A stretch of 64,000 nucleotides of DNA from positions 434,001 to 498,000 of the forward strand of contig NZ_AJLF01000002.1 of assembly GCF_000258515.1 (NCBI RefSeq), written 5' to 3'. The translations under genes and the position numbers were made by a program. Source of the DNA: Thermococcus zilligii AN1. GTDB lineage: Archaea; Methanobacteriota_B; Thermococci; Thermococcales; Thermococcaceae. Below are positions 41,787 to 46,420 of this stretch, piece after piece (position 1 is the stretch's first letter; every line of letters begins with the position of its first letter). Under the pieces are notes generated by a model that made no database searches, had not been told where the DNA came from, and worked only from the letters and a program-made list of their open reading frames with translations.

Positions 41787-41815
41787 CTTTCCTCTCCTTC
41801 CAGGGGGTGGAAGGG

Positions 41816-43123
41816 ATGAAGATTGAGCGCGTTAAGGGGACGAGGGACTTTTTGCCCGAGGAAATGGCGAAGAGAAGGTGGGTCTTCGAGAGGATCCGGG
41901 AGGTCTTCGAGCGCTACAACTTTCACGAGGTTCTCACGCCGACCTTTGAGTACACCGAGCTCTTCAGGCTGAGGAGCGGTGAGGAGGTCGTTAAACAGCT
42001 CTACGCCTTCCCAGACAAGGGAGGGAGGGACATCTCGCTCAGACCGGACATGACCTCGAGCGTCGCGAGGCTCTTTGTGAACTCCTTCCAGACGGCCCCA
42101 AAACCCATAAAGTGGTACTACGTGGCCAACATGTTCCGCTATGAGGAACCCCAGAGCGGTAGATACAGGGAGTTCTGGCAGGCCGGCGTTGAGCTCATAG
42201 GGAGCGACAGGGTTGAGGCCGATGCGGAGGTAATAGCGCTCTTCGTTGAGAGTTACTTAGCAACTGGCCTGGAAGACTTCACCGTCAACATCGGCGACAG
42301 GGTTTTACTCGACGAGTTCGCGAAGATGTTGGGCGTTAAGGATGATGTTGGCCTCATGAGGCTCATAGACAAAAAGGACAAGATGAGCGGGGACGAGTTC
42401 ATCGGAGCTCTCAGGGAGTTCGGTCTGAGCGGAGAGGGAGTTGAGAAGGTTCTGTCGCTGATCGAAATCAGGGGCCTCCCGGAGGAGGTTCTGCCCGGGG
42501 CCGAGGAGCTCTTCACGGGCGAGAAGGCCAGAGCCGAAATCGGCCGGCTCTACGAGCTCGTTGACCTGCTTAACGCCTACGGCGTCTCCAAGTGGATAAG
42601 GATAGACCTCGGAATTGCCCGCGGTTTTGACTACTACACGAGCGTCGTCTTCGAGGCGATAGCACCTAACGACCTCGGAATAGGCTCCGTCGGCGGCGGT
42701 GGGAGATACGATAACCTAATAGAGGTCTTCGGCGGAAAGCCGACGCCAGCTACAGGCTTCGCAATAGGTATAGAGCGTCTCATTCCCATCCTGGAGTGGA
42801 AGGGCCTTATACCGGAGCCAAAGCTGAGGCCGGACGTCTACGTGGTTCCGATTGGGGAGGAGGTAAAGAAGGCCGCGGTTGAAGTTGCTTCCGCCCTCAG
42901 GAGAGCCGGAGTCAGGGCAGACATCGAGCTAACCGGGAGACAGCTCAGGAAGGCCCTCGACCACGCTGGAAGGCTGGGCGCCCCCTACGTTATCCTGATT
43001 GGAAGCAAAGATTTAGCCGGGGGCAGGGTAACCATAAGGGACATGGACAGCGGCGAGCAGAAGGTTGTTGAGAAGGAAAAGGTTGTGGAGGAAACCCTGA
43101 AGCTTTTGGAGGCCTCGGTTTAG
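41816..43123 (+). CDS. hisS: Histidyl-tRNA synthetase
   Basis: 435 aa from ATG 41816 (GGGGGTGGAAGGG upstream). A class II core with motif 2 FRYEEPQSGRYREFWQ, the histidine-specific ARGFDYYTSVVFEA, and a C-terminal anticodon-binding domain (VYVVPIGEEVKKAAVE) at about 340-435. The presence of that last domain distinguishes it from the HisZ paralogue. It attaches His to tRNA-His. Confidence 0.96.
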   Translation: MKIERVKGTRDFLPEEMAKRRWVFERIREVFERYNFHEVLTPTFEYTELFRLRSGEEVVKQLYAFPDKGGRDISLRPDMTSSVARLFVNSFQTAPKPIKWYYVANMFRYEEPQSGRYREFWQAGVELIGSDRVEADAEVIALFVESYLATGLEDFTVNIGDRVLLDEFAKMLGVKDDVGLMRLIDKKDKMSGDEFIGALREFGLSGEGVEKVLSLIEIRGLPEEVLPGAEELFTGEKARAEIGRLYELVDLLNAYGVSKWIRIDLGIARGFDYYTSVVFEAIAPNDLGIGSVGGGGRYDNLIEVFGGKPTPATGFAIGIERLIPILEWKGLIPEPKLRPDVYVVPIGEEVKKAAVEVASALRRAGVRADIELTGRQLRKALDHAGRLGAPYVILIGSKDLAGGRVTIRDMDSGEQKVVEKEKVVEETLKLLEASV

Positions 43124-43239
43124 CCCCTTTCCACTCTGAACTCCCTCGCCTTTCTCTTCATCCTCCACTCCTCAAAGCGCCTCACGAAGGGGCATCTGGA
43201 GCGCCACCTCTGAAATGCCTTCCGAAGGAACCCAACCAT
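43120..43239 (-). CDS. Possible 39-residue basic small protein
   Basis: A minus-strand frame from ATG 43239 to TAA 43122-43120 overlaps the last bases of hisS. It encodes a strongly basic, aromatic-rich peptide (MVGFLRKAFQRWRSRCPFV at the start, many Arg/Lys after). GGGGGT five bases before ATG is a good ribosome site, and TATA-like TTATAAAG/GGTTTTAACC elements lie upstream. Composition could suit a small nucleic-acid-binding protein, but a chance frame is possible. Confidence 0.33.
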   Translation of the reverse strand: MVGFLRKAFQRWRSRCPFVRRFEEWRMKRKAREFRVERG

Positions 43240-43288
43240 AACGACCCCCAGCCTTTATAAGTGGCAACGGTTAAAACCCTTTGTGTCG

Positions 43289-43347
43289 CAGGGATGATGA
43301 GTCTGGAGCCCCCTGAGCGGTGAGGAGGTTTCGCGGGGCTGACCGAA
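43289..43347 (+). ncRNA. C/D box sRNA
   Basis: Box C ATGATGA (43294-43300), 12-nt guide, box D' CTGA (43313-43316), 3-nt spacer, box C' GTGAGGA (43320-43326), 12-nt guide, box D CTGA (43339-43342). GG before C and CC after D can close the kink-turn stem. This is the canonical archaeal 2'-O-methylation guide layout. The D' guide GTCTGGAGCCCC is complementary to GGGGCTCCAGAC, the anticodon stem-loop expected for tRNA-Trp (CCA), and predicts methylation of C32. The D guide target is unidentified. A CTTTATAAG TATA box at 43253 would start the RNA near 43283. It ends at the ATG of the next gene. Confidence 0.8.
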
Positions 43348-43626
43348 ATGATAAAGGAGCGCCTCTGCAGGGAATACATTGAGGAGATAGAGAGGCTCCA
43401 GCTCTCGGTCAGGGAGCTTGAGGAGGAGATAATCGAGCTCAGGATGCAGCTCAGGAAGAAGACCGAGGAGGTAACGAGCCTGAGCATAGAAAACACCAGC
43501 TTAAGGCACAGGGTGGAACTGATGGAGCGCAGGGAGAGGCAGATTCTTGAGCTCCTCAAGAAGCTGAAGGTGCCCTTAGTACTGGTGGACGAGGACGAGT
43601 TCGAGGACATAAACGTCGAAGACTGA
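43348..43626 (+). CDS. Small coiled-coil protein
   Basis: 92 aa, almost entirely a predicted coiled coil (EEIERLQLSVRELEEEIIEL, heptad leucines to about residue 75) with an acidic tail (VDEDEFEDINVED). No family is recognised. There is no good ribosome site because the sRNA D box lies five bases upstream, so translation may be weak or leader-dependent. alaS starts 58 bp later. Confidence 0.62.
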   Translation: MIKERLCREYIEEIERLQLSVRELEEEIIELRMQLRKKTEEVTSLSIENTSLRHRVELMERRERQILELLKKLKVPLVLVDEDEFEDINVED

Positions 43627-43684
43627 GGGAAACCTTAATTAATGTGTGGTTCTTCTTGGTGTAGCCCAAGGAGGGGTGGTTCTC

Positions 43685-46420
43685 ATGGACATGACAACAA
43701 GGATGTTCAGGGAAGAGGGATGGATAAGAAAAACCTGTAAGGTCTGTGGGAAGCCCTTCTGGACGCTGGACCCAGACAGAGAGACCTGCGGCGACCCGCC
43801 GTGCGACGAATACCGGTTCATAGGAAAGCCGGGAATTCCAAAGAGGTACACCCTCGACGAGATGCGCGAGAAGTTCCTGGGCTTCTTCGAAAAGCGCGGG
43901 CACGGGAGGATTAAGCGCTACCCAGTCCTCCCGCGCTGGAGGGACGACGTCCTCCTCGTTGGGGCAAGCATAATGGACTTCCAGCCCTGGGTAATAAGCG
44001 GTGAGGCAGAGCCCCCGGCCAACCCGCTCACGATAAGCCAGCCTTCAATAAGGTTCACCGACATAGACAACGTCGGGATAACCGGCAGGCACTTCACGGT
44101 ATTCGAGATGATGGCCCACCATGCCTTCAACTACCCAGGTAAGCCGGTCTACTGGATGGACGAGACGGTTGAGCTGGCCTTCGAGTTCTTCACCAAAGAG
44201 CTCGGCATGAAGGCTGAGGACATAACCTTCAAGGAGAACCCCTGGGCGGGCGGCGGGAACGCGGGGCCGGCCTTTGAAGTTCTCTACCGCGGTCTGGAGG
44301 TGGCCACCTTAGTTTTCATGCAGTACAAGAAGGCCCCCGAGAACGCTGACCCGGGCCAGGTTGTCGAGATAAAGGGCGACTTCTACGTGCCGATGGAGAC
44401 GAAGGTCGTTGACACCGGCTACGGCCTTGAGAGGCTCGTCTGGATGAGCCAGGGGACGCCAACGGCTTACGACGCCGTCTTGGGCTACGTCATAGAGCCC
44501 CTCAAGAAGCTCGCCGGGATAGAGAGGATAGACGAGCGCATCCTCATGGAGAACTCCCGCCTCGCCGGAATGTTCGACATAGAGGACAGGGGTGACCTTC
44601 GCTATCTGAGGGAGCAGGTGGCAAAGCGCGTCGGTATAAGCGCTGAAGAGCTCGAGAAGGCCGTGAGGCCCTACGAACTAATATACGCCATAGCAGACCA
44701 CACCAAGGCCTTAACATTCATGATAGCCGACGGGGTAATCCCCTCCAACATCAAGGCAGGCTATCTCGCGCGCCTGCTTATCAGGAAGAGCATAAGGCAC
44801 CTCCGCGAGCTCGGCCTTGAGGTACCGCTCGCTGAAATCGTCGCCATGCACATAAAGGAGCTCTCGCCAACCTTCCCTGAGTTCAGGGAGATGGAGGATG
44901 TTATCCTTGACGTAATCAACGTTGAAGAAAAGCGCTACCAGGAGACCCTGGAGAGGGGAAGCGACCTCGTGAAGCGCGAGATAGCCAGGCTCAAGAATGC
45001 AGGAAAGGGTGAGATACCGCTCGAGAGGCTCATACTCTTCTACGAGAGCCACGGCCTAACGCCCGAGATAGTCAAGGAGGTAGCGGAAAAGGAGGGCGTC
45101 AGGGTCGAGATACCTGACAACTTCTACACGCTGGTTGCAAAGCAGGCGGAGAAGGCCGGGAAGGCGGAGGCAGTGGAATACGTCGTGGACTTCGAGCTGG
45201 TCAAGGACTTACCTGACACGAGGACGCTCTATTACGAAGACCCCTTCATGAGGGAGTTCGACGCCGAAGTCCTCAGGGTAATCGACGACTGGGTGGTCCT
45301 CAACGCTACCTCCTTCTATCCGGAAGGCGGCGGCCAGCCCTACGACACTGGTGTTTTAGCTGTTGACGGTGAGGAAGTTAAGGTAACCAGCGTCCAGAAG
45401 GTCGGAAAGGTGATCCTCCACAGGGTCGAGAGGCCGGAGCTCTTCAGGGAAGGGGCCAGAGTCCACGGAAGGATCAACTGGGAGAGAAGGATACAGCACA
45501 TGCGCCACCACACCGGAACGCACGTCCTCATGGGCGCGCTTGTCCGCGTTTTAGGAAAGCACGTCTGGCAGGCCGGTTCACAGCTCAGCACGGACTGGGC
45601 CCGCCTGGACATATCCCACTACAAGCGCATAAGCGAGGAGGAGCTTAGGGAAATCGAGCGCCTCGCCAACAGGGTCGTGATGGAGAACAGGAAGGTCACC
45701 TGGGAGTGGTTGCCGAGGACGGAGGCGGAGCAAAAGTACGGCTTCAGGCTCTACCAGGGCGGAGTCGTCCCCGGAAGGGCTATCCGCGTGCTGAAAATAG
45801 AGGACTGGGACGTGCAAGCGTGCGGTGGGACGCATTTGCCTAACACTGGTCTAATAGGCCCGATAAAAATCCTGAGGACGGAGCGCATACAGGACGGCGT
45901 GGAGAGGATAATCTTCGCGGCCGGAGAAGCGGCTATAAACTGGATGCAGGAGACCGAGGGAATAATCAAGAAGACAGCGGAGATATTCCGCGTGCCGCCC
46001 GAGAAGGTGCCGGAGACTGCAGAAAGGTTCTTCAACGAGTGGAAGGAAGCGAGGAAAGAGGTCGAGAAGCTGAGGAAAGAGCTGGCGAAGCTCCTCGTCT
46101 ACGAGCTTGAGAGCGGAGTAGAGAAGGTCGGAGAAGTCGAGTTCATCGGCAGGGTAGTCGAAGGAACGATAGACGACCTCCGCGAAGCTGCTAACAAGCT
46201 CAGGAAGGACAAGCGCGTGGTAATCCTCATCACCGGGGAGGGGCACTTCGTCGTTGCCGTGGGGGATTCCTTAGACATCACAGCCGAGGAGCTGGCGAAG
46301 GTGATAACGGGCGTAGCAGGCGGTGGCGGTGGCGGAAGGAAAGAGCTTGCGCAAGGAAGGATAAAGAACCCCCTCAAGGCTGGGGAAGCCATTGAAGAAG
46401 TCAAGAAGAGGCTCGGTTGA
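43685..46420 (+). CDS. alaS: Alanyl-tRNA synthetase
   Basis: 911 aa from ATG 43685 (GAGGGGTGGTTCTC upstream). It is archaeal-type AlaRS: an N-terminal Cys cluster (CKVCGKPF ... CGDPPCDEY), class II core, tRNA-recognition region, editing domain with the zinc motif HHTGTH ... [10 protein letters not shown], and a C-terminal DHHA1-like domain ending [13 protein letters not shown]. It charges tRNA-Ala and hydrolyses Ser/Gly-tRNA-Ala. Full length, no disruption. Confidence 0.97.

Follow-up and report, generated by a model that had tools for sequence, protein, structure and literature searches.

The C/D box guide RNA sR23 of Thermococcus zilligii, predicted to target C32 of tRNA-Trp, lies directly before the start codon of a coiled-coil protein gene

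Introduction

Archaeal C/D box sRNAs are bound by L7Ae, Nop5 and fibrillarin, direct 2′-O-methylation and are often circular. For the anticodon loop of tRNA-Trp in Pyrococcus furiosus, snoRNAdb already predicts C32, C34 and C39 as C/D targets, according to Wolff et al. 2020 (PMC7668247). In Thermococcus kodakarensis KOD1, the sRNA Tko-sR50, one of the most-read units, was placed near the 5′ end of the transcript of TK1565 (Jager et al. 2014, PMC4247193). The same study counted 11 KOD1 sRNAs within 5′ leaders and another 12 within the 5′ part of coding regions, and regulation through K-turns was considered possible (PMC4247193). Under the name sR46, this sRNA has a circular junction at 1371729–1371790 and a start site at 1371720 (PMC9014305 Table 1). 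It yielded 176,232 small-RNA reads in KOD1, and 188 circular reads in the wild type versus 3 in the rnl ligase knockout (PMC9014305).

Here we describe the corresponding locus in a window of 64,000 nt from Thermococcus zilligii AN1 (contig NZ_AJLF01000002.1, positions 434,001–498,000 of the forward strand). The genome is 1.76 Mb in size and 99.9% complete. The family of this sRNA, the prediction for C32 and the position in a leader have all been published before. The present analysis adds the adjacency of sRNA and start codon in most loci of the family, and a mapping by which the published KOD1 ring probably includes the AUG.

Results

Identity of the sRNA

Rfam family RF01138 (sR23) matched the plus strand of the window at 43292–43344 with 74.8 bits (E 2.7e-16), above the gathering score of 45. 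The match ran end to end (1–54 of 54). The C, D′, C′ and D boxes follow each other in this order, with guides within the 10–12 nt characteristic of archaeal C/D box sRNAs. The features of the locus are:

43252..43260, plus strand: TATA-box-like CCTTTATAA, putative promoter of sRNA and mRNA, ~25 nt upstream of the equivalent of the KOD1 start site
43290..43351, plus strand: sR23 C/D box sRNA, extent drawn after the homologous 62-nt ring of KOD1 (sR46/Tko-sR50)
43294..43300, plus strand: C box, ATGATGA, from sequence
43301..43312, plus strand: D′ guide, GTCTGGAGCCCC, pairing with tRNA-Trp positions 29–39 through N+2 to N+12
43313..43316, plus strand: D′ box, CTGA, from sequence
43320..43326, plus strand: C′ box, GTGAGGA, differing from RTGATGA at one base
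43327..43338, plus strand: D guide, GGTTTCGCGGGG, without a convincing target
43339..43342, plus strand: D box, CTGA, from sequence, followed by the five bases CCGAA and the ATG at 43348
43348..43626, plus strand: gene of a 92-aa coiled-coil protein, orthologous to the gene at 1371787 in KOD1 (presumably TK1565)

The spacings between the boxes are canonical. A first reading, made from the sequence only, had described four canonical boxes with canonical spacings; all four are present where it placed them and the spacings hold, but the C′ box is one base off the consensus. In the genome taken to be that of KOD1, where C/D sRNAs fall at the published coordinates, the sR23 copy at 1371731–1371782 is sR46, alias Tko-sR50. 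We found sR23 in 90 of 94 Thermococcaceae genomes and in none of 14 control genomes. Considering the sR23 score and this distribution, the C/D box observation stands well above chance, and the window sRNA is very probably the Thermococcales guide RNA sR23, real and already known.

Genome G069 (50 contigs, 99% complete) has tRNA-Trp and TrmJ, and searches for sR23 and the coiled-coil gene found neither of them there. This could be due to a loss or to an assembly gap.

Pairing of the D′ guide with tRNA-Trp

The tRNA-Trp of the window genome was located by a gapped pattern at G000:C2:199503-199593. It carries a 62-nt intron, and after splicing its anticodon arm reads GCGGG-CTCCAGA-CCCGC. With this arm, the D′ guide forms 11 contiguous Watson-Crick pairs, from N+2 to N+12 (tRNA positions 29–39). 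C32 falls at N+5, where C/D guides place the methylated base, and N+1 faces C28, unpaired. The earlier reading had proposed GGGGCTCCAGAC as target, of which 11 of 12 bases match the tRNA-Trp arm; the first base, position 28, is C in the tRNA instead. Its placement of C32 opposite the fifth base from D′ is borne out by the 11-pair duplex. A guide that did not match the genome's own tRNA-Trp was to have spoken against the assignment, and the alignment gave a match. Apart from the antisense strand of sR23, no site in the genome carried the exact GGGGCTCCAGAC. One other site, at C3:84508 (CGGGCTCCAGAC), was considered as a target and rejected; it sits just downstream of tRNA-Gln.

Against 16S, 23S and 31 tRNAs, 4 of 300 shuffled guides (~1%) also reached 11 pairs. 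Taken alone, the predicted pairing with tRNA-Trp is therefore suggestive, and the target assignment rests largely on conservation. Among 87 sR23 sequences, 85 keep positions N+2 to N+11 of the D′ guide, and one of the other two has a register shift. The tRNA-Trp anticodon arm was identical in all 26 genomes read. Together, these comparisons give good support to a D′ guide aimed at C32 of tRNA-Trp, for which methylation is predicted. From what is known of C/D sRNAs, L7Ae, Nop5 and fibrillarin would assemble on sR23, and fibrillarin would 2′-O-methylate C32. A fibrillarin gene is present in the window genome. With the unspliced precursor the D′ guide forms 10 pairs, compared to 11 after splicing, so that sR23 could act on either form.

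The tRNA-Trp intron has C/D boxes of its own, with guides which, by sequence reading, fit the unspliced RNA at C39 and C34. It gave sub-threshold matches with Rfam sR3 and sR40. Near tRNA-Trp in the window genome, the minus strand of locus L057 (1812–1871) had a sub-threshold match with Rfam sR44 (30.3 bits versus 45), and is probably another C/D sRNA.

The D guide

The first reading had left the target of the D guide to be found. A scan against rRNA and tRNA was run and gave no convincing target. The best contiguous match was 16S G345, with 9 pairs from N+4 to N+12, a length which 49 of 300 shuffles equalled or exceeded. Position G2125 of the 23S rRNA matched at 13 of 14 positions and was rejected as a firm target: its mismatch is at N+4, which is G in 87 of 87 sequences. 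The D guide is probably an orphan, and orphan second guides have been described for tRNA-targeting sRNAs (PMC7994747). The end of the D guide and the start of the D box together read GGGGCT, which could pair with AGCCCC in the D′ guide. This complementarity may explain the conserved GGGG of the D guide.

Cm32 and the distribution of TrmJ

By mass spectrometry of P. furiosus, predicted positions such as C32 were undetected in the tRNAs analysed, and mature tRNA-Trp was obtained, as described in the sections of Wolff et al. 2020 (PMC7668247) used here. In the same sections, Cm34 is reported for tRNA-Trp of S. acidocaldarius and not for that of P. furiosus. Mature tRNA-Trp having been obtained, the undetected Cm32 counts mildly against the modification, but the Cm34 record in these sections leaves coverage of the tRNA-Trp loop uncertain.

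Archaeal TrmJ is listed as a Cm32 enzyme (PMC6313347), and we found a TrmJ/YjtD-family protein in 65 of 94 family genomes, including KOD1. Cm32, where present, might then be made by TrmJ, with the match between sR23 and tRNA-Trp redundant or vestigial. We consider this very unlikely: our search for SpoU/TrmJ in the window genome found none, and that for TrmJ/YjtD in nine g3 genomes gave 0 of 9, yet sR23 persists in all of these, and its D′ guide is nearly invariant with and without TrmJ. In TrmJ-less strains, sR23 is the only candidate writer of Cm32 on tRNA-Trp that we identified. A mutual exclusion of TrmJ and sR23 across genomes was also considered; their distributions did not uphold it.

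Position of sR23 in the leader of the coiled-coil gene

The KOD1 start site at 1371720 corresponds to ~43281 in the window. From a promoter just upstream, sR23 would be transcribed as almost the whole leader of the coiled-coil mRNA. The overlap of sRNA and leader noted by the sequence-only reading, with the D box five bases before the ATG, is confirmed: the D box ends at 43342, 5 nt before the ATG, and the arrangement is conserved. In 76 of 87 readable sR23 loci (74 recognized by script, L143 and L168 by eye) the coiled-coil gene starts directly after the D box, and in ~60 of them the distance is exactly 5 nt.

In the remaining 11 of 87 loci, sRNA and coiled-coil gene are apart and the sRNA is unharmed, so that guiding does not depend on the coupling. 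No coiled-coil gene was detectable in three of the genomes with such loci. Five genomes (G030, G042, G068, G070 and G076) had intervening sequence and kept the D′ guide; there, the leader of the coiled-coil gene had purine-rich, Shine-Dalgarno (SD)-like runs, for example GGCGGAGG or GGGGAGGAGG. The coiled-coil protein is under purifying selection, with a median dN/dS of 0.22 (441 pairs), and had no family over the cut-off in Pfam and NCBIfam.

In the window, sR23 and the coiled-coil gene lie between hisS-like and alaS-like genes (41807–46420). A 39-codon ORF on the minus strand (43239–43120; MVGFLRKAFQRWRSRCPFVRRFEEWRMKRKAREFRVERG) points away from the sRNA promoter and shares sequence with the end of hisS. 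It has 60–85% identity in many Thermococcus loci, and is probably a small unannotated gene. In one locus (L079, genome G076), sR23 at 1501–1552 runs into the middle of an alaS-like frame and not into the coiled-coil gene, pointing toward a rearrangement or a misassembly.

Release of the sRNA and translation of the mRNA

On the genome, the end of the KOD1 ring maps to one base after the AUG (1371787–1371789), ~9 nt beyond the D box, with the junction given only to within 5 nt. Other KOD1 rings with clear boxes mostly run 6–10 nt past the D box; the one exception has an ambiguous box. Despite the junction uncertainty, the extensions of these other rings indicate that the KOD1 ring probably includes at least the first base of the AUG.

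The published reads show that the KOD1 orthologue is abundant and partly circularised by Rnl. Excision of a ring that includes the AUG would remove the start codon. A transcript turned into sRNA would then probably be untranslatable from the coiled-coil AUG. That sRNA release and translation exclude each other, as first proposed from the sequence, is consistent with the KOD1 junction and plausible. A more far-reaching proposal is a family-wide either/or transcript, in which assembly of the guide particle would cut out and circularise the leader with its start codon, and the output of the coiled-coil protein would be set by the demand for the guide, or by how much L7Ae, Nop5 and fibrillarin is available. 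We put this forward tentatively, as a reading with rather low probability.

If excision occurred just before the AUG, it would leave a leaderless coiled-coil mRNA, and both products could come from one transcript. The start 5 nt after the D box in ~60 of 87 loci, the ~14% of KOD1 mRNAs which are leaderless, and a distance of 18 nt between the ATG and the closest upstream sequence resembling GGDGRD, the ribosome-binding consensus of KOD1, agree with such an mRNA. Against it, the end of the KOD1 ring lies beyond the AUG, and similar extensions past the D box are seen in most other rings with clear boxes. Overall, we find the leaderless mRNA unlikely.

The sRNA may also just be packed compactly, borrowing a promoter-proximal place, with the unprocessed transcript being translated and no regulation involved. 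Similar arrangements are common in KOD1, as the 11 leader and 12 coding-region sRNAs show, and the pair is separated in 11 of 87 loci, three genomes there lacking a detectable coiled-coil gene. The near-fixed 5-nt spacing over several genera speaks against it, as do the SD-like motifs upstream of the coiled-coil gene where the two are separated. We find this explanation somewhat improbable. Were the either/or transcript true, it would couple tRNA modification to the expression of an uncharacterised coiled-coil protein.

Discussion

The sR23 family and its C32 target being catalogued, our results are mainly a confirmation in one more genome. In addition, they provide a test case, a guide RNA that in ~76 loci family-wide directly abuts one and the same gene at its start codon. 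Natural separated cases come with it, as well as strains lacking TrmJ, where we found no Cm32 candidate for tRNA-Trp other than sR23.

Several described systems resemble this locus. Archaeal mRNAs under L7Ae/K-turn control (PMC5539422; PMC4247193) have a K-turn-forming RNA in their leader, as at sR23, through which bound L7Ae might influence translation or processing. In contrast to those leaders, the sR23 leader is a complete guide sRNA, which, going by KOD1, is also cut out and circularised, and the control is hypothetical here. The Pyrococcus tRNA-Trp intron guide sR50 (Cm34, Um39 or Cm39) is, like sR23, a C/D guide for this anticodon loop. It differs in being part of the tRNA intron, with C34 and position 39 as targets; sR23 is a separate gene, with C32 as its predicted target.

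The closest relatives are the family itself and its KOD1 member. Compared to RF01138, the window sRNA has the same boxes and the same D′ guide; a one-base deletion and a few substitutions are found in the stretch from C′ to D guide, and otherwise there is no difference. Compared to the KOD1 locus, the spacer and the downstream bases are slightly different in the window, and TrmJ is found in KOD1 and not in the window genome. Tko-sR50/sR46 and TK1565 nevertheless offer the nearest parallel, an orthologous sRNA in the orthologous place, the 5′ region of the transcript of the same coiled-coil gene, and in the published data it is expressed and circular (PMC4247193, PMC9014305).
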